Positions 3,934-54,566 of a stretch of 64,000 nt of DNA are shown here, piece by piece. The translations under genes were made by a program, and so were the position numbers. Every line of letters starts with the position of its first letter. The first letter of the stretch is position 1. The notes under the pieces are model-generated. The model had not been told where the DNA came from, did no database searches, and worked only from the letters and a program-made list of their open reading frames with translations. Where the stretch lies: positions 4,154,001 through 4,218,000 of the forward strand of contig JAGVVL010000002.1 in the NCBI GenBank assembly GCA_018287875.1, in the 5' to 3' direction. Source of the DNA: Nigrospora sphaerica (lineage: Eukaryota; Ascomycota; Sordariomycetes; Amphisphaeriales; Apiosporaceae).

Positions 3934-6311
3934 ATGTCGACTGACAGCGCCTTCTATGACCCCTTCTTCTACGAGGAAAGCTGGTCCGAGGACGACGCCA
4001 GCTATGCAAGAGGAGGGCCGGGGAGTGACGGAGGCCATGAGCTGTTGGAACGCTCTCGCGAGGTACGGCCCCGGCGTGCCACGAAGCTGCGATAGACCGC
4101 GGAGAGAGACGCGCACTAACATGGAGGTGACACTTCCTAGTTTGAACCGGCAGTGCTCAAGGACTTTTATAAATATGAGCCAATCCCGCAGCAATTTCCG
4201 ACAAGCAGAGTGCTCATCTTGTATCCCGGAGACGGCCCGGAGCCTCTTCGGGGCCGCTTAGAGTCGCTCTATATTGGACAACGCCAGCAATACCAGGCGC
4301 TTTCCTACGTATGGGGCACCTCGAGTACGGTAAAGTCCATCCTCATTGATGGGAAAAAGCTTCCAGTCACAGAAGGCCTGTGTAAGCACTCTTGAGGTCC
4401 CTACGTACTTTGCCCTTGCTCGGCGTGAGAAGCCAAGTAGCGTGTTCTCCTCGTGTCGTTAGCCACGGGGGGCACCGGGGCTCTTGTCGACCCTTTCGAG
4501 CAAATACTGACTCTCGCTGTTTAGGGACTGCACTCGGCAACTTTCGTTCCAAGGAGCGGCCCCTCTGGATTTGGATCGACCAGATATGCATCAACCAAAA
4601 GGACAACATGGAGAGAAACTACCAGGTCGGGCTGATGCACGCCATATTCCGGGAAGCGAGCGAGGTTGTTGTTTGGCTAGGTCTTGACGCCAAAAGCCAA
4701 GCCCGGGATGCGTTCAAGCTGGTTCGTTCCCTCAGTGTCATTTTGGACGATGAGCTCGTCGGCTCGCTTTGCAGGGCCCCTGGGGCACGGTGTGATTGGA
4801 TTCCCGAGAAACACTGGCGGGCGCTCCGGGAGCTGCTACACCTGCCTTGGTTCCGGCGAGCGTGGATCCCTCAGGAAATCGGCACCGAAGCGCCAGCTAC
4901 CATTCGCTGGGGTGCCGATAGCATCGACTGGACGATCCTGAGCCAGGCGATGATCAAGCTCGAGGCGTGTTGGGAGCTGCGCACGGCCCACGGCATTGAC
5001 ACGACACGGGTGACGCTGCTGTACCGGCGCTTCGTCGCGGACCCGGACGTCCAACGCGATGCCGGGTCGCTCGGCTTCGTTCTCCAGCTCTGCCGCACGT
5101 CGCGCACCCTGGCGACGGACCCGCGAGACTACGTCTTTTCGCAACTGGGGCACTACTCGGCCTGGATCGAATCCGAGGGCGCCATCATCATAGAGCCCGA
5201 CTACGATAACTCGGTCCAGGACATCTACCACGAGGTTGCTATTCGCGCCTTCAAATCCTGTACTAGCCTGATGGTCCTGAACGCGGTAGCCGATCGGGGC
5301 ATCGAGGTGGGAAGGCGCATGACTCTGCCCAGCTGGGCGCCGCGATGGGATGCAGGGCGATTCCACAACACCATCGGCTATCCCGGCCACTACCAGGCGT
5401 CGGGCAGCAGCTGGTTCCTCCAGTCGGTGCGGTTTGACGATGCGCACCTAACCCTGTCCTTGCAGGGGCTCGTCGTAGACTCGATAGTCAGACAGGCGGA
5501 AAAGCCGTTCGAGAAGCTCGTGAAGCCCTACTTCTCGTCCAGCGGACGGTCCAAGCTGGTGGCCCAGCTGCGGAACGCCTGGGCCGTCTGCGGGCCCAGC
5601 GAGGGCGACTCGAAGTTCGCCAAGTTCACGACCAAGCCCAAGTACCGCGACGATGCCTCGGTCCCGGCGCTCAAGGCCTTCCTGGACACGCTGGGGCCCG
5701 CGCTGCGGGTTGCCCAGCTCGACGGCAAGACGGGCGCGTACCGCTCCGGTGTCGCCGTGCTCGAAAAGCTTTTTCCGCCCGCCATGTTCTCCTCCAAGAA
5801 CGACCCGCGCAGGACCGTAGGCGCAGAGGACCGGGGCCAGCCCGCCAAGGAAATACGAGAGACGGTATGGCTGCAGGCGGCCGGACAGAACGCCACGAAT
5901 CGTAAGCAACATCCGGTGTTCTTGGTGACCCATTCCGGCAAGACATCACTCTCGCTGTACCCCGCTTATGATGTGTTCTTGGCGTTTTTGCCTGAGAGTG
6001 CCCCGGAACCGGCTCCGTGAATACCTGCTTTAGGAAATAACTGACTTTAGATGATGGTAGGGAAGTTTGCTGTCACGAAGCAAGGCCACTTCGTTATGGC
6101 GCCACCCACGACACGACGAGGTGACCTCCTTTGCGTGTTATTCGGGGGTGAGACGCCCTACGTCCTCCGCAAGATGTCAGGCGATGCGCGCAGCAGCGAC
6201 GCCGTGTACCAATTCGTGGGCGAGGCGTACACGTACGGTTTGATGAAAGGCGAAGCCATGGACATGTTTCAAGCGGGCAAGCTACTTCCCACCACCTTTC
6301 GTATTCGATGA
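3934..6311 (+). CDS. Heterokaryon incompatibility (HET) domain protein
   Basis: Proposed exons 3934-4062, 4141-4381, 4525-5864 and 6051-6311 give 656 residues. The HET domain shows its usual blocks: YQALSYVWG at 94-102, LWIWIDQICINQ at 137-148, WIPQEI near 237 and DPRDYVF near 322. The C-terminal block of large HET proteins (GDLLCVLFGG, then YVLR and FVGEAY) lies in the last exon. HET proteins act in non-self recognition and can trigger cell death when unlike hyphae fuse; the partner cannot be read from sequence. Intron 1 has a good branch site (CACTAAC). The last intron, 5865-6050, is inferred because it restores the C-terminal block; if retained, translation stops at 6018-6020 after 78 extra bases of readable frame beyond the alternative donor region. 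The first exon encodes an acidic, aromatic N-terminus (FYDPFFYEESWSEDD). Confidence 0.88.
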
Positions 6312-11990: not shown

Positions 11991-14663
11991 ATGGTGAATG
12001 CCGCCGAGGTGAAGAGCGACACGCCTCCGCCCTCGTCGTCGTCGGGCGGTCTGCTGCAGAACGAGAAGTCTCCGCTGGACGACTTCCGCCGCCAGAGAGA
12101 TGCCGAGGCCACTGCCGACGACAACGTCCACTCGTAAGCTCGCAGGCCTCCCCGTCGCCCCTCCCTCCCGCCCCCCTCCGCGACCCCCACGATTGACTCC
12201 CGTGCCAGCGACTTCAATGTTTCGGCGGACGACCTGCTCGAGGGCAAGCGGCTTGCCTCAACGCTGACCCTCGAGGACATCCGCCCCATGCTGGAGGAGG
12301 TACTCGAGCTGCACAAGACGGACCCCAACTTTCCGTTTGCCATTATTGACAAGATCGAAACCTTCCTCGCCGACGAGGATATCTTTGACGACCCCGAGCA
12401 GCATGAGGCCATCATCAACGAACTCAAGCTCGAGGCCGCGCTGATGACCATCAACAGCCCGTATCCCGAGGTGCGCGCCGTCGTTGACAACCACGACGAT
12501 GTCACTACGCCCTGCAGCACCATACGCGCTTGGGTCATCGGCATGTGCTTCGCCGTCTTGCTCTCCTTCATCAACCAACTCTTCTCGATTCGTCAGCCCG
12601 CCATCACCGTCCAGGCGAACGTCGCCCAGCTGCTTGCCTACCCCATCGGCAAGTTCTGCGAGCAGACCCTTCCGGACATCGGTTTTACGCTGTGGGGCGT
12701 TCGCCATTCCTTGAACCCGGGCAAATTCTCACGGAAGGAACACATGCTGGTCACCATCATGGCCAACGTGAGTTGGAACACACCCTACTCGAACAACATC
12801 ATCTGGACCCAGTTCCACTACTTCCACCAGAGCTATGCCGGCCAGTATGGATACCAACTTCTCATCGCGCTCACCACGAATCTCTTGGGCTATGGCATGG
12901 CCGGCTTGGTCCGTAGGTTCTTGGTCTACCCTTCGCACTGCGTGTGGCCCGGATCGCTTGTGACCATCGCCTTGAATTCCGCCTTCCACAACGACAAGAA
13001 TACGCCTGTGCCGAGCCCGTTTGGGAACGTCTTCACCATGTCGCGCATGAAATTTTTTGGAATCACGTTTGCCGCCATGTTCGTTTACTTCTGGCTTCCC
13101 GGCTACCTCTTCACGGCCATGAGCGTCTTCAGCTGGATGTCCTGGATCGCTCCCGACAATGTGGCCCTCAACACCGTGACGGGCTTCAACAATGGCCTCG
13201 GCTTCAACCCCTGGCCTACCTGGGACTGGAACACGCTCCTCTTCGACGCCACAGATCCGCTTATGCTCCCCTTCTTCAGCACCTTTAACAAATTTATCGG
13301 CGCGGCGGTTTCGGGCGTCGTCATCCTCGTCATGTGGTATACCAACACGTACTGGACCGCCTATATTCCCATCAACAGCAACCGAATTTTCGACAACCAG
13401 GGGCGTCTTTACAACGTCAGCAATGCGGTCGATTGGAGCAGCGGTCTGTTCGATCCTATCAAGTACGCCAACTACTCGCCTCCCTTTCTTTCGGCCGGAA
13501 ACCTCGCCGTCTATCTGTTCTTCTTCGGCATCTACACGGCCACGCTGTCGTATACCTACCTCTACCATCGGCACGAGGTTATGATGGGCTTCCGCCACCT
13601 TTGGCGAAGCCTACGGCAGGCCCAAGACGAAGACACCGGCCATTACCAGGATGTTCACAACCGCCTCATGTCCAAGTACGTCGATGTGCCCGAGTGGTGG
13701 CACATGCTCGTCGTAGCCCTTGCCCTCGCCTGCGGCTGTGCCGCCATCAGTGGATGGCAGACATTCAGCAGCCCAGGGGTTGTCTTCTACGGACTTGGCC
13801 TCTGTGCACTCTTCATCATCCCGGTCGGCATCGTCAAGGCCACGACGGGTGTCGAAGTAACGTTGAACGTCTTGGCTGAATTTATCGGAGGTAGCTGGGT
13901 GCAAGGAAATGCTCTCGCTATGAACTACTTCAAGTCGTTCGGCTACGTCACCGTTTTGCATGCCATCTTCTTCTCAAACGACCTGAAGATCGCCCATTAC
14001 GCCAAATTACCCCCTCGTCAAACCTTTGCTGCCCAGGTAGTCGGCATTCTCATCTCCACATTTATCTGCGTCGCCGTACTCAATTTCCAGATGAAGCAGA
14101 TCCCCGACGTATGCACCCCGCAGGCCCCGTACCGATTCACCTGCCCCGGCATCAACACCTTTTTCGCCGCTTCGGTCGTCTGGGGCACGGTCGGGCCTGT
14201 CAAGATGTTCGGCTCCGGCGGCCTTTACCCGATGCTGCTCCTCGGCTTTCCCATCGGCCTGGTCATCCCCATCATCTTCTATTTCATCCAGAAGAAGACC
14301 AAGAAAGCTTGGCTGCGGCAACTTCACCCCATTGCACTGTTTTATGGTGCGTTAACGTGGAGTCCGTACAACATTTCGTACATATGGCCGTCGGTGCCGA
14401 TCGCCTGGATCTCCTGGGTATACCTGAAGCGGAAGTATCTTGGATTCTGGTCCAAGTACAACTTTGTACTATCTGCTTCATTCAGCAGCGCCATCGCCGT
14501 AGCTGGTGTCATCATATTTTTCACCTTGCAATGGAACCAGATCGAGCTCGACTGGTGGGGAAACTCGGTGGTCAACCAGACTGGTTGCGAAGGCTTCCCA
14601 TGCACCTTATATCAGGTGGACAAGGGTGAATACTTTGGCCCCGCGTTGGGCACGTTTACATGA
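11991..14663 (+). CDS. OPT-family oligopeptide transporter
   Basis: Exons 11991-12133 and 12209-14663 give 865 residues, typical of fungal OPT (peptide-transporter clade) proteins. The first ~110 residues are hydrophilic and cytosolic: a serine run (PPPSSSSGG), then charged sequence. The rest is polytopic. Family landmarks are NPGKF..KEHMLVTIMANVS from residue 217, the SYAGQYGYQLL block, LVYPSHCVWPG, the EFIGGSWVQGNALAMNYFKS block, the KLPPR motif near residue 647 (family form KIPPR), the proline/cysteine-rich loop FTCPGINTFFAASVVWG, and the cysteine-rich tail CEGFPC. It should be a proton-coupled plasma-membrane importer of tetra/pentapeptides or related substrates; the substrate cannot be told from sequence. 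The start has a good context (GTCATGG). An in-frame upstream ATG at 11841 exists but its extension is proline-rich noise. There are no frame defects. Confidence 0.95.
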
Positions 14664-19520: not shown

Positions 19521-22500
19521 ATGTCGTCGGCCTATCTTGAGCTTCCGCCCCTGGACACGTCCTTGGGACTGTTCGATGAGCCACCGAAGGACCCGGCCCC
19601 GCCAAAGGCGAGCACCTTGGCCGCGAAAAGAAAACGTTTGCCCACTATTCGAACCTCACTTTCACTTACCCCGGCAGAACTGCCCCATGTGCCGCTGGAG
19701 CACGCTGCGGCCGCGGTTGCCCATGCTCTGGGCGTTAACCTGAGCGACCTCGAACCGCGGGCCACAAGTCAGACACGCGCATCCTGCGACGAGCCGCGGA
19801 GAACTAGTTCCGTCTATGAGACGACACCCGAGTTCGCACTAGATGACCCAGCGGACCACTCCATCGAGGAACGGTTCAGTTTCGCTGTCGCCGAGACCCT
19901 GGGGCTGGACAGTGACTCGGTGCCGAGGGACGAGTCGTTCCTGGAACTGGGTGGAAGCCCGCGGGCCGCCAGGTCACTCCGAGAATCGTGCATGCGGATT
20001 GGGCTTGCTGTGAAAACCAGAGACATCCTCAGCTGCAAAACCATGGCCGAGCTCGAAACCCGCGTCACCCCAATGAGCGCCTACTCGCAAGCCGCTGCCC
20101 CTTTCGTTGTGAGCCCTCTTCAGATCAGCCCGCCCCGCAGCCTGTTCTATTCCTCGAGCCGGAGTCTTTCTCTCAGCCATTCCTCGGCGACAAGTCTCCG
20201 GGGGCCTTCCCTCCGTGGTAACCCACCCCCAGTACAGCCCAAGGCCTCACGGCGGTATCACAACCGGGTGGAGCAAACGCTGGCTCTGTGCAGCCAAGTG
20301 ACCAAGGCCTGTGTCGTCAAGCCGAAGGCTGGTTTCTTCGAGGGCCAGATCGTGGCATTTGTCAGTCTTGCCACCTGTGCCGTGGAGGGTAGCAACGACT
20401 GCGACATCAAGCTCCTCAACGCCTATCACACCGGCCCGTTACCCTCGATACGGGCAGCCGTGGAAGAAAAGGTGCCGCCGACCATGGTGCCCGAGGTCTG
20501 GGTCGTTCTCGAGCGCCTGCCGTTGGACGAGTCGGGGCGTATAAACCGCCGGAGCCTCCAGACGTGGATTCAAAATGCCAACGAAGATCTCCATGGGCAA
20601 ATCATGTCGATAGAGACCCAGGATACGGTTACGGAGCCCGTCACGGACATCGAAAGACAACTACACAGCGCTGTTAGCAAGGTTCTGAACCTCGACCCCA
20701 AGTCGGTGGGAATGAACATGTCTTTCACGAAGCTGGGTGGCGACCCCACGAAGGCAATGCAGCTGGTTGTCCGGTGTAAATCGCAGGGGCTTTCTCTCAG
20801 GAGCGAGGATATTCTCCGGGCTCTGTCCCTGGCGCAGCTGACAACGCTTGCCACCTCCAAAGACGGCTGGGCGGGCAACTCGGCGGAAGAGAATGCTGCC
20901 GATTTCGCACTGTCGCCTATGCAGCGGCTGTACTTCCACACGGTTATGGGGAACAAGGCCTCGCGAAGGGCTCTGCGACACGGGTCCTACCGGTTCAACC
21001 AAAGCATGTTGGTCCGGTTGAACAAGTCGATCGGCTTGGAAGACGTGCGCGCCGCGATCGAGGCCGTTGTCGGGCACCACGCCATGCTCCGAACGCGCTT
21101 TCGGCCGATCGGCGCCACCTGGTCACAGTTTACGCTGGCGGACATCCCGTCTTCGTACCATTTCGATCACCACACTGTCGGCACCAACGAGGAGGTGGAG
21201 GGGGTTATTAAGCAAGCGCAGGCCAGCATCGATATCGAGCACGGCCCAGTTTTTGCCGCCCACCATTTCTACACCCACGATGGACACCAGATGTTGTATC
21301 TTGTGGCTCATCACCTCGTCACTGATCTCAAGTCATGGCAAATCATCGCACGCGACCTCGAAGAGCTCCTTACCAACGGCAGCCTGGCCTCGGATCACCT
21401 TATGTCTTTCCAAGCATGGTCGGGGTGCCAGCGCCGAAACGTTCGCAATACCGTAGGTGCCGGCGAAGCGCCATTCAAGATGGCGCCCGCAGACTGGGGC
21501 TACTGGGGCGTTGACAGTGACCACAACTCGTACGGGAACACAGCTGCCTACAGTTTCACGTTGAGCTCGGATTCCACATCGTTGTTGGAAGAGAGCAATA
21601 ACGCCCTGCGGACGGAGTCCTCCGACATTTTTATCGCCGCCCTCCTTTTGTCTTTCCGCCAGACCTTTCGTGAGCGGGCCGCCCCGGCCATCTGGAACCA
21701 GGAACACGACAGGGCGCTCCTCGGTTCGCAGATGGATATTTCCGAGACGGTGGGCTGGCTCACATCTCTATGTCCGGTAGCACTGGAGGTGAGCCCTGCC
21801 GACGACCTACTCCACGTCTTATGCCGAGTCAAGGACGCCCGTCGTGCCCTTGACCAGCGTGGCGTCCCTTACTTTGCCGCCAATCTCATGGATGCTGCCA
21901 CAGCAGAAGCCTTCACGTCTTCTCTCTGTCCCCTGGAAATCATTTTTACCTACGCCGGCATCATGCAAAACAACGAGCGCCCAGGTAGCATCCTGACTCA
22001 ACTCCCCGTGCCGGGCGAGTCACTGCCTTCTGAGGCTGCAGACATCGGGCCCAGCGTCGGCCGGGTCGCTTTGTTCGAGGTATCTGCTGCCATTGAGTAC
22101 GGAGAGACTAAAGTCAAGTTTCTCTGCAACCAAGGATCCAGGCATCGGGATCGTATTCAGGCCTGGATCCACAGCTATGAGTCTCTCCTCCGTTCGGCCA
22201 TTCACCGCCTGAGCAGCCAGTCCCCAGCGCTTTCCATGTCGGACCTGCCCTTTGTTGACATATCATATGATGGACTGACGAAGATGAACCTGGAGATTCT
22301 TCCCAGCCTCCACATCGACATCGCAAACATTGAAACCGTCTGCCCTGTCACACCGAACCAACAAAACGCTCTGATCAACGAGACCCTGACGCCTGGGAGC
22401 TCCCTCATGCAGGCCATTTACGATCTGGGTGGCGGCGAAGGTGCCGTTAATGTGAGTCGCATTTGCGCCGCATGGCAGCAGATCACAGAGAGGCATTCAG

Positions 22501-25500
22501 CTTTAAGGACAGTGTTTTCAGACAGCGTCTCCAACCACGACTTGTACGACCAGATCATTCTCCGTCGTCACTCGCCAAACATGTTGTTCATCGAGAGCAC
22601 GAATGCCGGCGAGGCTTTGAAGGCTGTCGAAAACTGCACTCCGCCAACGCTGGTCAAAGGTACGCCCTGGCACAGACTAGTCGTGTGTCAGGCGCCGGGC
22701 AGGGTTCTGCTGAAGCTGGAGATCACCCAAGCTCTCTGCGACCCTTCCAGTGTCGTCATCCTTTTTCAAGAGCTAGAGCAAGTCTACTTCCACCAGAGCA
22801 TCCCGGCAGCTTCGGAAGTGTGCTTTCCCGAGTACCGCCAATGCCTCAAAATCACACCGATCAGCACCGACTTCTGGCACGAGCTGGCGAAGGATGTACC
22901 TCCTTGCCTTTTCCCGACGCTGATGCTGAACCGCTCCTCGACTAGGCAATACGAGAGCCTTTCCGTTGATCTTGGCATTCCGCACCGCAGCCTGCAAGCC
23001 TTCTCTCGCAAGTACAAAGTTGGGGTTGCCGCACTCCTCAAAGTGGCATGGGGCATTGTCCTGCGGGCCTATGTTGGCTCCGACATCGTGTGCTTTGGGT
23101 ACCGCACGTCTGGTCGAGACTTGCCAGTCAGCGGTCTTTCAGAGGCAGTGGGGTGCTTCTCCAACATGCTGTTTTGTCGCCTCGCCTTGCCGTCATCACA
23201 GTTTCTAGTCCAGGCCGTGTTTGATTCGGAAAGCATCCACCGCGAGGCCCTGAACCACCAGCACATGCCCATTGGCAGCTTCCAACACAGCCCAGAAACA
23301 AAGGGTGCCAGGCGTTTCAACAGCTGCCTTACCTTCGGATACGAGACCACGGCGGCGATAAAAGACGAATCCAGATTTCGGCCCCTCAAGACGGTGCAGT
23401 CATCGGAGTACGACGTCCATGTCGATGTCAATATTCGAAACAACAATGTAACAGTTGACTTGGGCCATCGGATTCTGGGCTCGGACCAGGGACGCCACAT
23501 TGCCCATGTCTTCGGGAAGGCCATACAGAGTATCATACAGGCCCCTGAAAGCACGGTCAACGATGTCGACCTCTTCACGGAGCATGACCACAAACAGATC
23601 CTACAATGGAACGGACGATCCAAACCGGCGACCCCGAGCGACTACGTCCACCAGTTGATCGCCAGGCAGGCAGTCGAAAATCCCGATATGCAAGCTGTCT
23701 GTGCTTGGGATGGGGATCTGACTTATGGCGAACTAGATGAGTCTGTCATGACTGTTGCCAGCCACCTCCGCAAGTGCGGCGTAGATGCCAAGAGCCTAGT
23801 CCCCGTCATCTCTGACAAGAGCCGCTGGGCGGTAGTGGCGATGCTCGCGGTCTTGAAGTAGGTGCTCGGCCGAATAAGCGCTCGGTGATGTTTTGCTGAC
23901 GTCTTTGCAGTGCCGGCGGCATCCTTGTTCCCGTCGACGCCGAACTGCCCTTCATGTTCTCTTGGGTCATCAAGAACGTTGGCGCTAAAGTCATGCTGGC
24001 GTCGGAAAGCGTTCGTCGCTACCTCGAGCACAATGTGGGCTGCGATGTGGTTTACGTTAATGAGTCCACCGTCGAAGCCCTGGCCTCGCAGCCCGTCACG
24101 GTCACACCACCCCAGACCAGACCCCTGGACACGGCTTGTCTTCTTCTGGGCCACGAAGGCGCGAAGACACGCAAAGGTATTACGTATACACACCATGCTC
24201 TGGCGGTAGCATGTGCGGGCCAGGGGCCCGCGCTGAGACTAAATCCGTCCAGCCGCGTGATGCAGATCTCGTCATACAGCACCGACGTTGCTCTCTCCGA
24301 GATCTTCACGACCCTTATCCACGGCGGCTGCGTCTGCGTACCGTCGGCGGTTGAGCGAACAGCCGACTTCACCTCGGCGGCTCTCCGTATGCGCGTGAAC
24401 TGGTCCTACATGACCCCCACGCTGTCCCGGAGGATACGGCCAGAGAACCTGGCCGGCCTGGCCGTTGTATGTTTTCGGACTCTAGACCTCGACGAGGATA
24501 CGTACACACCGTGGGCGGGCAGAACAAAAGTCCTTTTGGCTTACGGCTCCTCCGAGGTCTGTCCTCTGGCCCTCTCGACCTGGGAGATCAAGGACGTCGG
24601 GGCGCTACGATGCATCGGTACGCCCTTCTGCGGCAACTACTGGATTGTTAATGCCGAAGACAGCAACCGCCTGGCGCCCGTTGGCGCCGTCGGTGCGCTG
24701 ATTGTACAGTCCGACACTCTCGCCGATGGCCACAAGGTCAAGGAAGGGGACAGCACGAGGTGGCTCGGAAAGGTGGCCGGTCGCAGTAGCCGGAACGGCG
24801 AAAAGCCGGGGCGTCTCCTGCGGACCGGACACTATGTCCGCTACACGGAACACGGCCAAGTCGAATTTGTCTCTTCCCAGAGCGGCCGGGTCGAGATCGA
24901 TGGCCACTCCTTTTCACCGTCCGAGGTTGAGGCAGCCCTGCGGCGGTGCCTGGGTCGTGGTGTCGATGTGGTCGTCGAAACCATCGCGTTTAGCTACCAG
25001 GACAGCAACTCGACCCCGATCCTTGCCGCCTTCATCGAGCTGAAGGACAGCCTCTTCGACGACAGGGAGGAGCTGACGGGGCTGAGCCAGAGCACCAAAG
25101 AAAAGCTCAACTCGGTCAAGCAGATAGCGCAGATGGCGCTTCGGGATACGCTGCCGGATTACATGGTCCCAGCGGCCTTCATCCCGGTGCGGCAGATCCC
25201 GCTTACGCCTTCCCTTGAGGTCAGCGGGCGGGACCTGCAAAAGCGCATCGCAGGGCTTTCGAGGCACCAGCTCCTCAACCTGGCGGAGGTGGACAACACC
25301 CAGGCCATGCCGATGGCCGGCTTCAGCCCCTTGCCGCTAACGGGGGTCGAGGGGCAGATGCGGCCCCTGTGGGCTGACGCTCTTGGTCTCGACGCGTCCC
25401 TTATTACGGCTAACGACGGCTTCATACGCCTGGGAGGCAGCATTGACCGTGCCCACGATCTTGTGATCGCCTGCCGGCGGCAGGGAATTGCTATATCCGC

Positions 25501-27876
25501 AGTCGATCTCCTGCGTGACATGTCGCTGGCCGAGGTATGCCGTACCATCGCCGTCCCAAGCAGCCCGGTATCGCGTCCAAGCAGCGGCGCCTTGCCGCCC
25601 CTCAGCAGCGGCGGCGGCGGTGGCACCTCTTCCTCGGCGGACGCCATGGCTCCTCGGCTCGCCATCGACCCCAGCACCATCGAAGACGCTGCCGAGGCCA
25701 CAACGCTGCAGACCATTTTCGTCGAGTCCGGTATGCTCGGGAGCCTAGGAGACGTCAACTGGTTTGCGCTGCACATTACTGGGGCAGTGGAGCGTCATCG
25801 GCTGGAGCACGCCTGCGGCCTGCTGGTGGACACGCACCCGATCCTCCGCACGGCATTTGCCTCGCACGACGGCAAACTGTGGCAGGTGGTACTGGGGCCA
25901 AGTCGACCCGACTTCCAGCGCTACCAATGCCCCGGCTGGAGGCTGTCGGCCGCCGCGGGGAAAATGGTCAAAAAGGAGCAAGCTGAAGGCGTGGACTTCC
26001 GGCGGCCCGTGACCAAATTCACGTAAGTTGACGAGGCTTTACCCGCGATACGACATTGTACTGACGGCAGCCACCTAGGTTTCTGGATAGCGGCAAGTCG
26101 TCCATCCTTTTGCTGCGCCTCTCCCGCGCCCAGTACGACGATACGACCCTGACGGCGCTCGTCCGTGACCTCGGCCGCTTTTATGAGCATGGCGAGTCGT
26201 CATCCAGACCCCGGGCCAGAGGCTTCTGCCACGTGGTAAGGGCCGCTGAGCGATCCTTTACTGCTCATGACGGCGCCACCATCAATTATTGGAGGAATCT
26301 TCTCCGAGGCTCCCAGATGACGCATGTCGTGTCCCAGCCAGCGCCCGAGGTGGCCACCTCGCAGTCGCCGCGCACCATTTACCAGCAGATACCCACGGGT
26401 GCGGTGAGGAACCTGGGCATCCCGTTCGAGACTGTGCTCAAGGGCGCCTGGGCCGTCGTCTTGTCCAACCTCTCGGGGCTCGACGACGTCGTTTTTGGGC
26501 AGCTCGTTGAGGGCCCGACGGACAGCAAGAGCCGCGGCGTCGTCGGGCCCTGCGAGGGCGTCGTACCCGTGCGCGCCAAGATCCCAAAGGAGCCCGTGAC
26601 GCCCTACGAGTACTTTGGCGCCATCCAGAGCCAGCACGTCGAGAGCGCGCCGCATGGGAGCATGGCCTTGGGGCCCCTTGTGCGGCTGTGCACCGACTGG
26701 CGGGCGTGGACGCGGTTCGGCAGCGTGGTGCAGCACCTGGGCTCGCCCAGTCGGTGCGAGTCGCTCGCCAGCCTCTCCTTGGGCAGTACGGCGTCGTGCC
26801 GGCTCAGCTGTCTGTCCGAGTCCAACAGTCAGGCGTCGGATCTCTTCGTGCGTTCCACCATCACGGCTGGCGGTCTTGCCGACATCTCCTTGGCCTTCAG
26901 CGAGGCGCGCGTGCCGGCCGCTTTCGCCGAAGACGCGCTGCACATGCTCTGCGCCACCATCAGCCTGCTTACCTCGGCTTTCGTGATGGAACCGCTGATG
27001 CTCCAGAGCCTAAACGACAACACAGCGTCACCCCACGGGCCGCCGCGTATTCCTCTGCCCGCGGCGCCACGGTCGCCGGCGGCGCGACGGTCCGGCGGCG
27101 AGGCGGCGCAAGCCGTGGCCCCCGACCTTGCCAGCGCCGTGCACGACGTGGTCTCGAGTGGGTGGGAAGCGGTGCTCCAGGTCCCGGCGGCCAGCCTGCC
27201 GGGCGACGTGCGCGCCGTTCCCTTTTACGACCTCTGGGGGTCGCTGCTCCCGGCCGTGGAGCTGTCCCGGCACTACACGGAATGCCTGCGCGGGAGCAGC
27301 ATCACGGTGAGCGCCGACGACGTCATCGGCGCGCCGACCATGATGAAGCAGTACGAAATGTTGATCGCGAAGCTGCAGCAAGCGCAGGGCCAGGCCCTCC
27401 CGGCCCTTGACGTGGCCCTGGTACGGGGACGGAGCAGCCTCAGTCCCACGCTGAGCTTGCGGCTGCCGCTGAGAGCCTTGTCCAAAGCCAAGCACTGCAG
27501 GAGGTCGAGCCTCGTTCCCGCCAGCGGTGGCCACGACGGTCTTGTCGGCGCCGGCCTCCCATCGCCACCCATGGGCACGCCCTCGTCGTATGCCATGCCC
27601 TCGTCCCCTCTGTCGCCCGCCGCGGGGGCAGCCAACAGCGCCGCGCGGCGGCAGCAGCCGCAGCAGCCGCAGGGCCACCGCCGCAACGGGGACAGCGGCG
27701 CGTCCATGGAGAGCATGACGACGGGGAGCAGCCAGAGCGACGAGGATGAGCTGCGCGAAGGCGGGGCGTCGCCCTCGGCCGGCGCGGGCGCCTCCAAGAA
27801 GTGGAACACCACTCTCATGGTCAAAAAGGCGCGGGATTCGGCACTGATACGGATGAAACTGGGCGGGAGCTCCTGA
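19521..27876 (+). CDS. NRPS-like protein with all carrier serines replaced
   Basis: Exons 19521-23857, 23911-26022 and 26079-27876 give 2748 residues. Order seen: T1 (~115-185), C-terminal adenylation subdomain only (~250-360, ending in an A10-like LPLDESGRINRRSL), T2 (~380-445), epimerisation domain (~463-900), condensation domain (~935-1370), full adenylation domain (~1385-1895), T3 (~1920-1985), terminal condensation domain (~2050-2430), T4 (~2500-2570) and a Ser/Gln/Gly-rich tail. Functional residues are lost throughout. The carrier motif LGGDS reads LGGSP (P147), LGGDP (P409), LGGSI (I1957) and LWGSL (L2539). The condensation histidine is Q1070 (ITQALCDP) and R2166 (LSRAQYDD). The adenylation P-loop reads GHEGAK, RTGD reads RTGH (H1753) and A10 SGK reads SLE. 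The E domain keeps HHLVTD (597-602), but its EGHGRE block reads QEHDR. Peptide synthesis as in active NRPSs is therefore unlikely. No stop or frameshift occurs in the joined frame. Start is the first in-frame ATG (CAAGATGTCG). Confidence 0.9.
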
Positions 27877-28520: not shown

Positions 28521-30408
28521 TTACGCCCGGCACATGCGGCCGTCGGGCGCGACGGTCCAGGCATCACTACCCACGGTGCGGATGGCGTAGAAGACGCCCT
28601 CGGGGTCCCACTTGCGCTTGATCTCGAGCAGCTTGGGGTAGTTGGCGCCGAAGAAGGTCTCCTGCCAGTTGGGCTGGTTAAAATCGGCCTCGTTGACGTA
28701 GGAGCCCGAGCCGGGCGTGACGGCCTCAATCTGGGGCATGAACTCGTTCGTCATGCGCGTCTGGGCCGCCACCATGTCGGCCCACGGGCCCGTCGACACC
28801 CACGGCGTCGTCAGTTGCATCTGGATGCCGGCCTTGCGCCAGGCCGGGTTGACGCCGTTCTGATAGCCCGCGGGGCCCGGGGCCGTGAGGGCGTCGCCCA
28901 CGGCGATGACGCCGTGTTCCGTCAGGTTGCGCACAACGGCCATGAAATCGTCGTTGTGGTTCACCAGCACGTCGCGGGGGATCAGACGCCCGCCAAAGTT
29001 GTACTCGGCGACGGCGATGTGGCCGTTGGGAAGGGGCCCCATGTACGTGTCGTAGTGGTCCCGGTAGGGCAACGAGGTGTAGCTAGCCTTGTAGGGGATG
29101 CCGGCCGCGTCGAGGTAGGCCGTGAAAGGGGCCAGCACCTCGTCGCGGACATAATCGCCCGTCGAGTTGTAGACGGTAACGGGGTTCACCATCAGCACGC
29201 TGCTAACGACGTAATAAACCACCATGGCACCCTGGTCCACCATGGTAGGGAGAAGCGAGTGGAACTTGGCAACGGCGTCGTAAAACTTGTCGGGCGTCGT
29301 GTACGCAGAAGCCAACTGGAGCGTGGCACCACCCACAGTCATGTCCGGGTGGGCGCGGACCGTGAGGGAGGTGACGACACCATAAGTACCGGGGCCGCCG
29401 CCGCTCAGCGCGAAGTACAGGTCAGGGTTCTCGGTTCTTGACGCCTTGACCAGCTCGCCCGCCGCCGTGACAACCTCGAACTCCAGAGTGTTGTCGGCCG
29501 CCAGCCCGAACGAAGTGGTCAAAGCCGAGTGGCCACCGCCTTGGGTGTAGCCACCGGCCAGGCCGACTGTAGGGCACTCGCCACCGACGACGACGAGGCC
29601 ACGGGCGTGGGCGGCCTCGGTGGCCTCGTAACCCAAGATACCGGCGCCGAACTTGATGGCATCGCCCTGGTAGAGGTCGTCAGACCAGTCGAGGAACTCG
29701 ATGTTCTTCAAGTGGTTGGTCCAGATGGCCAAGGCACCAGCGCCGGTGGAACGGCCGAGGAAGCTAGCACACGGTATCAGTCTCAGCACGCCGTGCTAGG
29801 CCGGTCGAGTACGTACTCATGACCGGTGTTACGGACGAGGGTCCTGATGTTGTTCTTCTTGGCGAAGCGGATAGCAGCTTTGACATCGTCGGGGCTGCTC
29901 ACGTTGACAGCGTAGGCAACGTAGTTGCCTAGCAGGCACGGCTGTGTGCGGGGGGTGAAGGGGTCGCAACTTTGGTTGGCGAAGAAGGGCTGCATTATCG
30001 ACGAGGACGAGGGGATGCTACGGTGCCGGAGCCGTCAGCACGCAGCCGTTGAGACAAGCAGGCCCTTTGGGCCACGGGCCACAACCACATCCGTGGCGCC
30101 GTCCTTCTCACGGCATACGGGGGGACTCACTGCAACTCGGGCGTCGTCCACTGGTCTTGGAGGGCTTTACAAGCAGCCTCATCGTAGGTCGGGTCATGGC
30201 AAGGTGAGCCGAGGGGCACGGTAGCCACCAGGCGGCCGCCGACGGTCGAGTTGAGGGCAGACCAGGCATTTGCCGAAGGCCAGCACGAATCCTGGGGCAG
30301 ACAATGGCAGTCCGGGGAGGCGGCGGCGGGGGCAGGCGGCGATGGGGCGACGTGCGCGAGCACGGCGGCCGGGGCCAGGGACGACAGGAACAGGGAAGCA
30401 GGCTTCAT
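28521..30408 (-). CDS. Secreted BBE-type FAD-linked oxidase
   Basis: Reading on the minus strand, exons 30408-30131, 30017-29817 and 29763-28521 give 573 residues. A signal peptide (MKPASLFLSSLAPAAVLAH) starts the protein. The FAD-binding PCMH domain follows, with NTGHD carrying H159 and GGECPTVG carrying C223. These match the two flavin-attachment residues (8-alpha-histidyl and 6-S-cysteinyl) of bicovalent berberine-bridge-like enzymes. The downstream GGYTQGGGHS and SFGLAADN blocks and the C-terminal BBE segment (YVNEADFNQPNWQETFFG..Y.KL..IKRKWDPEGVFY) are intact. It should be an extracellular or secretory oxidase using O2 and acting on a sugar or small-molecule alcohol, amine or ring; the substrate is unknown. 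It runs convergently with the NRPS-like gene. Such oxidases are common tailoring enzymes in fungal metabolite clusters but also occur alone. Confidence 0.93.
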
Positions 30409-34055: not shown

Positions 34056-36001
34056 ATGAGGGGTCTTATGAGGTTTCTGCTCGTGTGCCTCGCCTGGTGG
34101 CCCGCCGTCCAGGCCCAGTCAAATGGGATGGACGCCGGAGCCTTGGCTGCCTTGTCGCAACTCCCGCCATGTGCCGTAAGAACTTCTCGTGGGTGATGAA
34201 CGCCGTCCCCGGGAACTTTGGCTAATTAAAAGCGCCTAGTTGGGATGCCTGAAAGCCGCCGTCGACCGCTCGGCCTGCGAAATGACCGACATGCCGTGTG
34301 TATGCGCCGACGTGAAACTTCAATCCGCCGTTGAAAGCTGTGTATTAGCCAGTTGTACATTGAAGCAGGCTTTGCGTACGTTCCAAGCCGCGCAGATCCC
34401 CATCCCATCCTCCCTAACTGGCGCGTTGCCATGACACTGCATTTCGAACTACCAGACTCCCCATAACTGACCAAATGTTTGATCCAGACACCAAAAATGT
34501 AACAGCGACCAGCTGCGGTGCTCCGATTCGCGATAGGAGGGACTCGTACAACACCATCTCCATCACCCTGGGCGTCCTTTCCGGGTTCTTCATGCTACTG
34601 CGCATCTTCACCAAGCTCGTCATCCTCAAGACGGATCTCGGCGCGGACGATTGGACCATTATCGCCACCGTGTTTAATGGAACTCCTAGCTCGGTGCTCA
34701 ATATTCACGGGCTGACGGCCAGTAAGCAACTCCCGCTGGCTTCTTTTCTGCCCGTTCCAGCATAAGCCTCTCCTCGGTGCTCCCGCTATTCTTTGAGTCT
34801 GTCTTTCTGGCCTCATGAGGCTCCGGATCCTGCTATCCGACCAAGTGTTTTGGGAACATTGCTGACTTTGGGTGGTGAAGATGGGCTTGGTACGGACGTT
34901 TGGACCGTTCCCTTTGACAATATCACGGCGTTTGTCCGCTCCTTCTTCGTCATGGAGATTCTCTACTTCTCTCAGATCACGCTACTGAAGTTGTCGCTAC
35001 TCTTCTTCTATCTGCGCATCTTCCCGGGCACGAATGTGCGACGCCTGCTGTGGGGAACGGTTGTTTTCAACTGCCTCTTCGGCGCTTCCTTTGTCGTGGC
35101 TGCCATTTTCCAGTGTTCTCCCATCCCGTACTACTGGCTGCGGTGGGATGGCGAGCACAAGGGGACTTGCATCGACATCAACGCTCTAAGCTGGTCAAAT
35201 GCAGGCATTTCCATCGGCCTTGACGTGTTCATGCTGGTTGTCCCCCTTTGGCAGCTCTCGGGTCTGAAGATGCATTGGAAGAAGAAGCTTGGTGTCGGTG
35301 CCATGTTCCTTGTGGGCACATTGTAAGCAACGACCCCCTCGTTTCCAAAAGTAGATGTGGCTGACCAGCCATCCGGCCGCAGTGTGACCGTCGTCAGCAT
35401 CCTACGCCTGCAAGCACTGGCGAGCTTTGCCGTGACGCAGAACCCGACCTGGGACAACTGGGCAGTGGCCAACTGGTCCACGATTGAGATCAACGTTGGT
35501 AGGTCTTTCATCCTCGCCCTCTCTTTCTGACCCACGGTCCTTCGGCCATGCGCACGCCTCCCTTTCCCCGCCTTCTGCGCTTTTCGCTAATCGTTCTGCC
35601 CCAAAACAGGCATCATCTGCGCCTGCATGCCGTCGCTGCGCCTTCTCCTGGTCAAGTTCTTCCCCAAGGTGGTGGGAAGCTCATCATACGCAGGCACGGG
35701 CGGGCCCAACTCGCGGGCCCAGTACTATATGAGCGGCAACGGCAAAGACATGCCCAGCCAGTCCTACGGCACGAGCAACCACAGCAAGGCGGTCCGGAGC
35801 CCTACCTCGTCCAAGTCTTCCGACTCCAAGGCGGGCGGCATCACCTTCACCAAAACCTACGCCGTCGAGTACCACGGCGATGACTACGATGAGGCCAACC
35901 TGGTGCGGATGGAGCCGCTCAACAAGCAGCACAAGATCGACACGGGCGAGAGTGCAGCGCGCTCTGGAGATTCGAGGCGCGGGGGTGGATCTCTCGTCTG
36001 A
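34056..36001 (+). CDS. CFEM-domain Pth11-like seven-helix receptor
   Basis: Exons 34056-34175, 34240-34375, 34488-34721, 34881-35322, 35383-35498 and 35610-36001 give 479 residues; all junctions stay in phase. A signal peptide ([20 protein letters not shown]) is followed by a CFEM domain whose eight cysteines are spread over exons 1-3 (PPCA, LGC, SAC, MPC, VC, ESC, ASC, TSCG). Then comes the fungal rhodopsin-like seven-helix region with the family blocks [35 protein letters not shown] and [22 protein letters not shown]. The cytosolic tail is short, polar and Ser/Gly-rich. Pth11-type proteins are plasma-membrane or endosomal receptors; in plant pathogens some sense host surfaces, and extracellular CFEM modules can bind haem or iron. 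The ligand cannot be inferred here. The gene is isolated between long spacers. Confidence 0.93.
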
Positions 36002-42093: not shown

Positions 42094-45000
42094 CTAGACG
42101 ACGACCTCCTCGTCGTCGGGATCCTCGATACTCGTCCTCGAAGTGGCCTCGTGTGTGCTCTTAATCTTCTTTCCGTCATCGCCTGTGACGGTGCTCTGTT
42201 CGCCCGCCGAGGTCGTTCCGGCCTCGTCGCTCTTGGCTGGCTTCTCCTTCTCCCTTTCTTTGTCCTTCTCCTTGGACGTACCGAAGCCCGGACTGCTGAA
42301 TGGCCACAGGCTGGTGAATGCAGAGCTCTTTTGGTTCTGGCTCGGGGGATGAACGGGAAGCGGCTTGACGATGACATTGGTCTTGCCAGAACTGGCGTTG
42401 CCCTCCCCGTCCACCTCGGGCATGGCAAAGTCTCCAAACTCTTCGTCATCATCGGCGGCGTCATCCTTGTCCGAATCGGAGTCGTCGTCTCTGCCGTCGC
42501 CAAACTTCTCCTCCTGACGAGACAAAGTACCTCGCCACCAGCCGCCGCGGCCTTGCGAATTCCAGGCGCCGCCGGCATTGCCGCTTTCGTCGCCCAAGCC
42601 GTCATCGCTATCGTCGTCCTCGTCAACATCCTCAGCGTCGTCTTCAAAGGGGTTTCGCAGCGTGCTGTCGGGTCCCGTTGTCATCGACAGCTCATCCTGG
42701 TCGTCGTTCTTCTCCGTATCTGCCGATTGCGCCGACGTCGCTGCCGAGCTTTTCTGATGCATGGCGAGCCGTGCCGCCAGCTGCAGACGAGCACGCGACG
42801 GCGGAATGTTCAGAGGAGGAGGCGGCGGAGGCGGCGGAGGGATCGACGGGGGGTTCATAGATGCCGAAGCTGCGTTCAGGGGATCGGTATAGGCGCGGAA
42901 CTAATGCACGAATTAGCCGACTATCCATCGACCCAGGCCCAGGACAACCGGGATGAGCCGCAGCTCGTGTTTGGCAGGGGGCGGGATGAGTCGAAAAGGA
43001 ACAGAACAGGAAAATGGGGCCACTGGGCCTAAGGGCAGCCCAGAGAGAGGACAACAACAACAAGGGGACCATCACACAGCCCGCGGTACATCCGGTCACG
43101 CGCGGAGGGAGGTGACCAAATGGAAGTGTGGGCGATGTCTTTGCTGTTGCTGCTATCCTACACTGCTGGTATCCTAAACGCTGCTGGAGCCGCCGGATAA
43201 AGGCGTCCAGGTAGGAGTTGCCGAGGGCTGTGGTATCAGGGTGCAAAGTGGTCAATCATCTGGCAACTCCCTTGGAGTGCCAATGTCCACGCCCTTGGCG
43301 ATGGGGCTCCCAGTGGGGCTGTCGGGTTCTGCGGCTTCAGAACTGCAAAGCAGCCATGGGTGGTGTTCAGCCAGTGCAAGCGCACTGCAACGATCGCCAC
43401 CAGCGGCGGAATTTGTCCAAAAGGGGCAGCGTCGGAGCCATCGTGGCTAGCCCGACTAAGCTGGCTCCTGTTCGCCGTGGGATGGGCCACCCAACACCGA
43501 GTTAAGTGCCATGCTGGCAACCGCGGCGCCCAGCACATTCCGCGACGAGCCTGCTGAGGCGGTCGCCGGGGAAGAAGGGGGAATATTTGGGGGCTGTAAA
43601 GGTGCTTGGGGGGAAAGGTGAGGGTTCTCGCCAGACCGAATGTCTAGGCGATCCAATGGGCTACTGACCTCGTTGTTGACTTCCTCCTCGTTGTCTTCCG
43701 ACTCGTCCTCTTCTTCGTCACTGGAGCTCCCGAATCCCGAGCCCAGAAGCCCAGAGCTGATACTGAACGGGCCAAGGCTGCTGCCGCTGCCATTGTCCGG
43801 CAGTTCCATGCTGGCGCCACCGTTCAGACCGGCCTCGGCGAGAGCGTTGGACGCCCCAGCTTGCGAGGCGCCGAGCCCGAGGCTGGATAGGCCCATGCCT
43901 CCGAGGCCGTTGCCAGCCATGGCAGCCCGGTTGCTCATAGCTACCTCGGGCCGGACACCGCCGAGAATTGCGTTGTCCCTTTCTCGCGTCTCGGCCAGGG
44001 CACCCTCTACGTAGTTGATCCAGTCCTGGCTCATGACTCGCTCCAGCACAAGCTCCGACAGAAGTTCGGGAGGGTTGCGCTCCGTGAACTTAACGACCTC
44101 TTCAGCGATGAGGGTTAGGTGGCCCATGTAACCCATTCGAGTCTTGTTCTGGGTTTGCGAGGCCTCGCTAGCGTTCTGGCCCTTGATAATGGCGTTTGTG
44201 ACATCGGCAGCTTCGAAAAGCGAGATTGCCAGTGTGGGGTTGAAGCCACGATCCATAGGGCCATTGAACACTTGCTGTACAATGTCGTACACCACGTTGT
44301 GAAGGAAGTTGTTCCAAGGATACTTGAAGAAGAATGTCTGGGATGCGAGTCAGTGGCAAGTCGCAGCCGCGGCGAATAAATTATCTCACCAGTATAGTTG
44401 GAACAACGCGATGGTTCACAAATTGCATTTTCAGGAAATCCCCGACAACGGGCCCAGTCTGCTCTTCAGTGGGAACTGGCTTGGGCTGTTCGGCCTCGTG
44501 ACCGTCGACAGCAGATGCGTCGCCAATTTCGTTTTTCGGCTCAGGGGTTGTAGAAGCGCCGGTACCTGGCACTGACTCCTCATTGGCGGGCTCCGCCTCC
44601 TTGGAGAGTTTGCTCATATCAACGGTCTCGTCCGTAGACCCAGAGGTTTCGTCCCCTTTTTCGGTCGAGGCGGAATTCGGTTCCACTTCTGTTTGCCGAG
44701 GGCTGGTGGGTGTTTCCGGAGAAGGCTCGGTGGCCGCCGGGGACTCCGAAGCGGCCCCGCCAACATGTGATGCCGTACTGGCAGCGGAAGGGGCCCCTGG
44801 GGAGGTCTTAGATACGAAATCGGCCGTGGCCGCATCTGGCGATGTCTCGGCGGACGCCGGCGTCGGCCCGATGGCTTTAGACTCCAAGTCGGCCGAGAGG
44901 GCAGTTGTGACGGCGGACTTCCTGGGCGATAACGGGGCCACAACCAGCTCGGGGTTCTCAAACTCGGGGATATCCTGCTCATGAACCTGGTTGTCATGGG

Positions 45001-46618
45001 TATTAAGCCGAGGAGAGCTCAAAGGCTCGTCGACGAACTCATCATCGTCCTTATCGAGGAACGAGGAAGACGGGCCGGCGGAAATCTCTTCCTCGGCCTT
45101 GACAAACTCGTGAGACGTGTCTTCGATCATCTCGCCTGACGGCGTTACCTCCTCAAAGCCATCATCGTCCGAGGCATTGGTGACTTCCAAACGGCGTCCG
45201 TCATCGGGCGAAGGGTGGCGGCCGCGCATTGTAAGGTCCTCGGCCGACGACTGCGCCTCGTCGCCGTGGTGGAGGGACAGCTTGCCCTCGGATCGCAGCT
45301 TCTGCCTCTCCTCGTCGCGCAGGGCTATGACCTGCTCCGAGCCCACCTCATTCAACAAGGCCATGTTGCTGCAGTGAAGAAGCTCGGCCATGAGCTCGCA
45401 TGTTTTGAAACGATCGAAGCCAAGGGGCTCAATCTTGTCGCCAAAGGTCGATTCGAGATGCGCTTTTTGCGACGGGGCGTTCATGATCAAGCCCATGAAG
45501 TCGGGCACGGCCTCTGCGAACATGCGCAGAAGGGTGCCCAGGTAAATTGGATCGCGACTCGAAGGCTGGGCGTTGTTGTCGGGACCGACATCCGGGTCGT
45601 AATCCGAGTTGTTTTTACGAATCACCTCGATAATGATACCGACACCCACCGTCAGTGGGTTTCCGCCGCCGAGCATGTAGCTAATCAGCTTTTCAACGCA
45701 AGGCTTCGACACCAACTGCCGGGTGAGTTCATTAGGGCCGATGCAGGCCTGCTCGTTCTGGGAGGCATTGGCCGACACCGTAATGATGGCCTTGATGAAG
45801 TCACCGGCTGACGTTTGCGTGGCCCAGCTGTGTTCGGGACCCAGGAAAGACAGCAAGGTCGGCATCACATCTTTGGTGTAGAGCCACTGTGCAGCCGGGT
45901 CAGGAGGAAAGGTCGAAAGCAGGCGGGGGGGTAGGGGGGTTCAGCTTACCTCGACAATGCCCTGGCCGCTATCTGTCCGCTCCAGGCTGATGATCTTCAG
46001 GAGCAGATCCATGATCATGGGGCAATCCACATGGCGCAGCATGTCAGGCACGGCGCTATCCAGGGATTTGAGAAGCTCCAGCATCTCTTCCGTCTTCTTG
46101 TCGAAGAGAGACTCGTTCACTTTGGTGAAGTAACTAGCCTGCAGCGGATCCAGAGGAGCGGGCAGCTTGAGGAAATTCCAGAAGTTGCGTAGAAGCGAGG
46201 TGCTCTCCATCAAGGCCTCGTAGATGGACCAGTTGTCGGAAGACAGCACCTCGGCAGCCACGTACGCGTATCGGTTGCGCTTCTTCTCGACCTCGTCATC
46301 GTCATTCTCGCCATCGTTGGTTGTCCGGGACGAGGCGCGCGGGCGTGGGAAGGACAGGCGGGACTTGCCCTTCTTGTCCTCGTCGTATTTCTCCTCGTCC
46401 GGGTTGACGACGGGTTCCAGCCTGGGGGCGACTACATACTCGAGCAGCTTCTGCAGGACCGTGTCCTCGCGCAGGTACTCGATGAGCTTGGTGTTGTGCT
46501 GCTTCAGCTCCTGGATCAGGTCGCTCTCGTCCAGGAGGTCCTCAAGCTGAAAGTCCTGCTTGTCGAGAATGGTGTCAATGGTGGAGATGTTGGCGTAGCC
46601 GCCAAATCTCCAGAACAT
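42094..46618 (-). CDS. SAP190: SAPS-domain Sit4 phosphatase-associated protein
   Basis: On the minus strand, exons 46618-45950, 45886-44390, 44337-43669 and 42900-42094 are all phase 0 and give 1213 residues. The N-terminus MFWRFGGYANISTIDTILDK is the hallmark of the family. SAPS helical blocks continue through exons 1-2 (LEDLLDESDLIQEL, NFLKLPAPLDPLQASYF, LLGG-type repeats). A long acidic Ser/Pro/Thr-rich insertion (~430-690) splits them from the block beginning TFFFKYPWNNFLHNVVYDIV (residue 723). The last exon has FRAYTDPLN (946), a proline run, acidic patches and a Lys/Glu-rich segment. These proteins are regulatory partners of Sit4/PP6-type phosphatase in G1 progression and nutrient signalling. 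The family symbol is given loosely, since yeast has several paralogues. The third intron (42901-43668) is unusually long for this genome, and an undetected small exon there is possible. Confidence 0.92.
42901..43668 (-). other. Unusually long intron of the SAPS gene
   Basis: 768 bases between donor GTCAGT (43668 downward) and acceptor CATTAG (ending 42901), against 52-66 bases for the gene's other introns. If retained, the frame stays open for 70 codons to a stop at 43456-43458, giving an alternative, shorter C-terminus. No tRNA, 5S or clear snoRNA was recognised inside. Confidence 0.65.
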
Positions 46619-54300: not shown

Positions 54301-54566
54301 GAGCAGCAGCAGCACCTTGGTCCGGCCCACCAGACGTGCGTTGGAGCCCGGCATGGCCTGAGAGAAGCCCGCGCACGCATCCCTTGCCGTGGAGGTGGAC
54401 TGCAGCTTCCTGCCTGTGCATTGGCTCGCCAGCTCGCTGCCTATTGTCCGTTGCCCCAAGGGAAATAGCCGCCCTCACGTGCCCCGAACCACCGCCGCCA
54501 CATGGATATCGTGGGCCCGGCGGCCTTCGCCCATTTCCCCTGAGCCTCACTGCCCTCTTACCCAAG
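51343..54566. other. Intergenic region between nudF and Stu2-type gene
   Basis: About 3.2 kb with no recognised gene. TACCTA-type words occur at 51811-51845 and form a near-perfect palindrome at 53080-53107. The last ~450 bases may include 5' untranslated exon sequence of the TOG gene: a plausible donor (GTAGGT) lies at about 54269. Confidence 0.5.
53080..53107. repeat. 28-base TACCTA palindrome
   Basis: Built from CCTACCTAGGTAGG-type words; the two 14-base halves are inverted copies with one mismatch, centred on CCTAGG. Related TACCTA/TAGGTA words recur in other spacers of the window but not in the coding exons I inspected. Confidence 0.85.

Follow-up and report, generated by a model that had tools for sequence, protein, structure and literature searches.

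Our data show that a gene in a 64,000-nucleotide stretch of the Nigrospora sphaerica genome (contig JAGVVL010000002.1, positions 4,154,001 to 4,218,000 of the forward strand; the whole stretch is called the window below) encodes a protein with the full shape of a nonribosomal peptide synthetase (NRPS) and with hardly any of the catalytic residues examined. As read from aligned motifs, the loss goes beyond the serines of the carrier (T) domains: the active sites of the condensation (C), epimerization-type (E) and adenylation (A) domains are gone too, and the losses are common to a family of at least 196 relatives (197 alignment rows with the window protein). We consider it highly probable that the protein is an ancient pseudo-NRPS under purifying selection, retained as a non-catalytic protein, because residue loss is clade-wide, the domains are still recognizable, the distribution looks vertical and the substitutions are conservative. 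Judged from the alignments, the family has the features of a pseudoenzyme: catalytic residues are lost across orthologues, and the frame and domains are retained.

Gene model and domain organization

The initial annotation had given a joined frame of 2748 codons without stop or frameshift. The splice check bore this out, coordinates included: three open frames join over two introns, and with the donors fixed just one of the nine acceptor pairs compared yields this length and no stop other than the terminal one, so that the frame of the 2748-residue protein is intact. The start of exon 1 is backed by an N-terminal PPLDTS motif common to Apiospora marii. G+C at third codon positions ranges from 0.70 to 0.85 across the exons and from 0.69 to 0.77 across four neighbouring open reading frames (ORFs). 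Homology to NRPSs and the presence of their C/E, A and T domains are supported by Pfam, by matches to PDB sequences and by homologues; the domain order is T-A remnant-T-E-C-A-T-C-T. No second copy of the gene was found in the 51.6 Mb assembly with exon 2 as query, since the next match is just 32% identical. The features of the gene are listed below, with bit scores from the hidden Markov model (HMM) of carrier domains described later or from Pfam.

19521..23857, + strand: exon 1 (start ATG; T1, A-domain remnant, T2, E, C1, start of A; frame and splice check, Pfam)
23858..23910, + strand: intron 1 (53 nt; GT..AG; splice check)
23911..26022, + strand: exon 2 (A domain, T3, start of C2; splice check, Pfam)
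26023..26078, + strand: intron 2 (56 nt; GT..AG; splice check)
26079..27876, + strand: exon 3 (rest of C2, T4, low-complexity tail, stop; splice check, Pfam)
19863..20060, + strand: T1 carrier domain (HMM 29.2 bits; serine column Pro147, 19959-19961)
20268..20537, + strand: remnant of an A-domain C-terminal subdomain (Pfam PF13193, 15.8 bits, under the 24.5 cut-off)
20649..20852, + strand: T2 carrier domain (HMM 66.5 bits; serine column Pro409, 20745-20747)
20898..22265, + strand: E (epimerization-type) domain, approximate limits (HHxxxD retained; catalytic Glu replaced by Gln727)
22332..23603, + strand: C1 domain, Pfam limits (second His of HHxxxD replaced by Gln1070)
23661..25258, + strand: A domain with intron 1 inside it, end approximate (substrate pocket conserved, ATP motifs A3, A7 and A10 gone)
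24284..24286, + strand: Asp1571, amino-group clamp position (family alignment, Asp in 185/185)
24470..24478, + strand: Cys1633-Phe1634-Arg1635, family-specific pocket segment (Cys 185/185, Arg 183/185)
25346..25546, + strand: T3 carrier domain (HMM 37.0 bits; serine column Ile1957, 25442-25444)
25676..27009, + strand: C2 domain with intron 2 inside it, limits approximate (Arg2166 in place of the second His)
27121..27348, + strand: T4, likely diverged carrier domain (profile-profile match 75%; serine column Leu2539, 27244-27246, WGS before it)
27400..27873, + strand: low-complexity C-terminal tail with SMESMTTGSS (39/197 members have it or a close variant)

Low-complexity Gln/Pro- and Gly/Ser-rich stretches lie at 27646-27702 of the window, in the tail, and at 25600-25650, in the T3-C2 linker. 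As candidates for a family trait the terminal motifs were rejected, the C-terminal one occurring in those 39 members and the N-terminal one in 80/197.

A single clade of Sordariomycete proteins

Relatives come from three protein searches (best 120 matches each, with ~8000 candidates, those having most words in common with the query, scored per search). All members of the family but three score at least 1065 bits to at least one query, and other NRPSs at most 960; the fragments P0168, P0170 and P0291 (883, 839 and 749 bits) were kept on 48 to 52% identity. The outgroup consists of 29 slices from the same searches, picked for long alignment. In assembling it, five slices were dropped ahead of the counts, three without an E region and two (P0076_1 and P0060_495) with a domain lacking E motifs at that place, and five whole proteins were added.

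Every named family member among the matches listed is a Sordariomycete. Ten taxa that were looked up fall in four subclasses and ten orders (Amphisphaeriales, Coniochaetales, Lulworthiales, Thyridiales, Microascales, Magnaporthales, Glomerellales, Diaporthales, Sordariales and Xylariales); further members (Fusarium, Clonostachys, Claviceps and others) we take to be Hypocreales, and the placement of the remaining names is likewise assumed. Two members, P0144 and P0015, carry the names 'Siderophore biosynthesis regulatory p...' and glycerophosphoinositol permease (in the order in which the names are listed), which look like annotation slips or fused models.

FastTree recovers the family as one clade with support 1.0 on a stem of 0.77 substitutions per site (185 fuller family rows, 28 outgroup). 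IQ-TREE in fast mode (30 family and 12 outgroup rows) gives it an SH-aLRT of 100, with branching that follows the Sordariomycete subclasses. By presence/absence parsimony the E-domain Glu, the C1 and C2 His, the A7 Asp, the A10 Gly and the T3 serine were lost before the base of the family, the C1 His was regained in Colletotrichum, and the T2 serine was absent at the base and regained inside, such parsimony being the sole basis for the ancestral T2 state. A presumed single early loss followed by vertical descent fits these data, because there is one clade, parsimony puts the losses before its base and the branching runs along subclasses.

Catalytic residues are lost in every domain type

Residue counts refer to the 197 rows with gaps left out, unless stated. 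The catalytic Glu of the E domain is found in 0/185 family rows and in 29/29 outgroup slices, the latter figure applying to slices selected for having an E domain, since those dropped lacked its motifs or its region. The second His is present in C1 in 11/177 rows of the family against 28/28 of the outgroup, and in C2 in 0/193 against 26/27. For the A domain, the family retains the A7 Asp in 2/197 rows (outgroup 26/28) and the A10 Gly in 0/195 (26/28). When the five sites are pooled and gaps counted as lost, 13 of 925 residues are canonical in the 185 fuller rows, against 135 of 145 in the outgroup. The window protein itself fails on each of these NRPS features, with none of four carrier serines, Gln1070, Arg2166 and Gln727 at the C1, C2 and E sites, and A3, A7 and A10 lost. 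The C1 His (SHALCD) occurs in all 11 Colletotrichum rows (P0131-P0141) and in no other, either kept or regained.

Four T-domain motifs had initially been read as holding P147, P409, I1957 and L2539 in the serine column, with a serine one position earlier in three of the four, and this reading was confirmed, the three being T1, T3 and T4. T1, T2 and T3 align gaplessly, at 29.2, 66.5 and 37.0 bits, to an HMM trained on 55 outgroup carrier domains; T2 reads GGDP. T4 was not detected from the window sequence alone by Pfam or by this HMM. A family profile of T4 (180 members) matches the carrier profile at a probability of 75% (E 2.5e-5), WGSL lying over GGDS, the same comparison giving 99.8% for T3, 98.0% for T1, and 3.4% and 0.1% for two control stretches, so T4 is likely a carrier domain, very diverged. 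Over the 197 rows the carrier HMM finds T3 in 196 places, T1 in 122, T2 in 118 and T4 in none. As a control, 40 of 40 carrier-family places in the genome (NRPSs, polyketide synthases and others, read by eye) have the serine; these are the best-scoring 40 of 80, with the window's own T2 among the weaker 40 left out, and a high score favours a normal motif, so the control is somewhat biased.

Across the family the serine is found in T1 in 6/174 letters, none of the six with LGGx before it, in T3 in 2/196 (outgroup 28/28) and in T4 in 0/190; T1 and T4 have practically no outgroup letters. T2 differs: of 121 rows with a letter there, 23 have serine, against 29/29 in the outgroup. These are 8 Apiospora rows, 12 Xylaria-type rows, P0013, P0018 and P0071. 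Counts vary with the alignment, from an earlier to a later one by 25/109 to 23/121 for T2 and by 2/109 to 6/174 for T1. The claim that every carrier lacks its serine thus stands for the window protein and for 168/197 rows (gaps counted as lacking), and does not extend to the T2 of those 23. The absence of the serine in four of four domains supports the expectation that this protein does not tether intermediates by the normal route. The T2 region is mostly missing in 64/197 rows, some of them fragments or members of other orders; in Hypocreales rows such as P0285, P0258 and P0233, T2 has turned into an unrecognizable linker.

Two readings would leave some carrier chemistry in place. In one, the T2 serine of the Apiospora and Xylaria relatives would be primed by a host transferase and used in trans by another enzyme. 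T2 is the best preserved carrier of the window protein (66.5 bits) and 23/121 rows do hold the serine, but the residue after it is polar or charged in 22 of those 23, P0071 alone having a canonical GGDS followed by a hydrophobic residue; in most Hypocreales rows T2 is missing or unrecognizable, and the window's own T2 has Pro. We regard residual chemistry of this kind as very unlikely. Still less probable is the shifted attachment site that had been proposed, in which the phosphopantetheine arm would sit on the serine one position earlier. That serine is present in three of the four window domains and in T4 of 149/190 members, but it is found in the preceding column in just 4/174 rows for T1 and 9/196 for T3, the other 41 T4 letters are Ala, Cys or Thr, and the losses extend to the A, C and E sites. 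An intact extra carrier elsewhere in the members was considered too and rejected: GG[DHN]S followed by a hydrophobic residue matches in 14/197 members, and 13 of these matches fall within C2 (nine) or E (four), the remaining one being the T2 of P0071.

Evidence that the protein is maintained by selection

Mean entropy is 1.75 to 2.2 bits in the domains and 2.5 to 2.9 bits in linkers and tail. The serine columns themselves, ranked by variability among 2449 sites, lie at the 99.6th percentile for T1, the 98.0th for T3, the 52nd for T2 and the 36th for T4. In all 40 runs of simulated neutral drift to 56% identity the coding sequence of the window protein picked up at least 36 stops, an argument weaker than the number suggests since gene predictors avoid stops. 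Mismatches to the closest relative among the matches listed have a mean BLOSUM62 score of -0.04, against -0.66 to -0.74 (SD 0.05) for neutral change at a similar identity; with more distant relatives the mean drops to -0.32, the simulation being matched to the closest relative alone. The simulation and the substitution pattern indicate purifying selection on the protein.

The initial annotation had suggested retention by selection, and the intact frame, class-wide orthologues and conservative substitutions agree with it. Orthologues with the same losses were sought and found, and none of those examined has a normal carrier set, two serine columns being the most that any of them fills. There is next to no probability left for a recent pseudogene, or for an assembly error at the four codons: many active-site residues are indeed gone, as either would allow, but the losses are common to relatives across the class, the frame is intact and the substitutions are conservative, which rules out a fresh pseudogene or base errors.

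A conserved pocket in a decayed A domain

The nine pocket positions of the A domain have a mean entropy of 0.59 bits, against 1.70 for the domain as a whole (permutation p 0.0001, 20,000 draws) and 2.18 bits for the same positions in the outgroup, a contrast that is overstated since the outgroup mixes many substrates. The ATP loops have been released, with 2.36 bits in the family and 0.75 in the outgroup for A3, and 2.28 and 0.96 for A8. Six pocket residues are nearly fixed: Asp1571 (185/185), Tyr1612 (182/184), Cys1633 (185/185), Arg1635 (183/185), Pro1664 (175/185) and Leu1665 (182/185). The Cys1633 and Arg1635 residues occur in none of the 28 outgroup slices with a letter there. Pocket positions were assigned by motif alignment, and Asp1571 is, we take it, position 235 in GrsA numbering. 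The family alignment of the pocket segment is gapless and anchored on a common Pro-Ser-Leu; one pairwise alignment to a solved structure instead pairs Phe-Arg with an earlier segment.

With the ATP motifs decayed and most of the lining nearly invariant, any ligand would most likely bind in the A-domain pocket. Its binding would determine the conformation of the assembly, and the protein would be a ligand-gated scaffold with the pocket as its sensor, the mechanism that we favour. That the pocket works as a ligand site is still a tentative proposal, which we hold to be less likely than not. A fuller version, possible but unlikely, is that a whole NRPS assembly line turned, on a single occasion, into a small-molecule receptor independent of ATP and was kept as such throughout the Sordariomycetes. 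The former A domain would then sense an amino acid or another carboxylate (Arg1635 would favour an acidic one), and the signal would be passed on by a scaffold made up of the dead T, E and C domains.

The main rival to the pocket as a sensor is a plugged pocket, in which Arg1635 pairs with Asp1571 and closes the substrate site, leaving a pure structural scaffold without ligand. The two residues are nearly co-invariant (183 and 185 of 185) and the ATP loops have decayed, both of which suit such a plug. Against it, few residues would be enough for a plug, whereas Tyr1612, Cys1633, Pro1664 and Leu1665 are nearly fixed too. We hold this explanation to be doubtful.

Gene neighbourhood

A biosynthetic gene cluster was considered as an explanation and rejected: none was found in 20 scanned ORFs of the 84 listed in the window, where the matches were the proteins below and one weak MFS match under the cut-off.

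4392-6017: HET domain protein
12288-14663, + strand: OPT oligopeptide transporter gene, ~5 kb upstream of the NRPS gene
28524-29789, - strand: BBE/FAD-binding oxidase, directly downstream on the opposite strand
34793-35323: fungal rhodopsin-like membrane protein
43459-45868: SAPS phosphatase-associated protein
49873-51054: WD40 protein
54123-57485: Stu2/XMAP215-type protein

The protein might also be a decoy or subunit whose docking onto a different, active NRPS would regulate that enzyme. The domain order is kept and would fit retained docking faces, but no partner was identified, the 20 nearby ORFs scanned include no biosynthetic cluster, and we find this role distinctly improbable.

Outside the window, at C13:2732781-2749415, an open frame of 6719 residues holds six nearly identical carrier domains ~3.3 kb apart, with a seventh near-copy at C16:2602713; from its sequence the six-carrier frame looks like a recent module amplification.

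Relation to described synthetases

Row P0285 bears the name FGSG_10523 and sits inside the family clade (support 1.0). This Fusarium NRPS3 is, like the window protein, without the carrier serine in T1, T3 and T4; it is ~33% identical to it over 2264 aligned positions, and its T2 is unrecognizable. In published accounts, the NRPS3 cluster of F. fujikuroi is expressed at low glutamine and its product is given as not known (PMC3694855), NRPS3 is among 13 NRPSs conserved in ten genomes (PMC10455376), and it is put in the EAS subfamily of NRPSs (PMC6480918).

Scedosporium apiospermum SAPIO_CDS8684, of 2,708 residues and order E-C-A-C with 'surprisingly no peptidyl carrier domain' (PMC6737921), is from this description very likely an orthologue of the window protein. 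It is treated there as a single odd gene and annotated as a pseudogene, and the authors speculate on conformational change; the available text of that account contains no discussion of other active sites or of a protein family (PMC6737921). In the open literature, most subscription papers lying outside the search, we found no description of the family as catalytically dead.

Ordinary multimodular fungal NRPSs are ~24-30% identical to the window protein over T-E-C-A-T-C, the nearest slices in the tree being P0066 (Aspergillus steynii), P0072 and P0079; in contrast to the family, they keep the carrier serine, the C-domain His, the E-domain Glu and the A motifs in nearly all slices counted. The ChNPS6 siderophore synthetases are conserved NRPSs with just one A domain called degenerate (PMC2823734), whereas in the family of the window protein all domain types are without catalytic residues.

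Weighing the evidence and implications

Several observations weigh against a long-standing non-catalytic protein. The E-domain HHxxxD is kept (184, 153 and 185 of 185 at its three residues), a Lys stands at the A10 Lys position in 152/195 rows and the basic residue closing A3 is Lys or Arg in 192/195, so residual activity is still compatible with the sequence. The T2 serine in 23/121 rows and the C1 His of the 11 Colletotrichum rows also count against it, and the two dropped outgroup slices P0076_1 and P0060_495 are also without an E motif. Three of the nine pocket positions (1572, 1575 and 1656) vary, and an ordinary single-substrate orthologue group would conserve its pocket as well. FGSG_10523, as NRPS 3, is reported as not expressed in wild type or kmt6 and as free of H3K27me3 (PMC3814326). 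Finally, a 94% identical match to SAPIO_CDS8684 appears in an assembly of Aureobasidium pullulans, a non-Sordariomycete, as reported in PMC6737921; it may be contamination or transfer.

Set against these, we still favour an ancient pseudo-NRPS. Thiotemplate chemistry would have been lost before the Sordariomycete subclasses separated, and the synthetase-shaped protein would then have been kept as a non-catalytic binding, scaffold or sensor protein. If this is true, no peptide is to be expected from Fusarium NRPS3, and its function would be better sought in binding or regulation. The family would be a rare case of a megasynthase that has outlived its chemistry throughout a fungal class, and its ~200 sequences would be ready for asking which faces of NRPS domains persist without catalysis.

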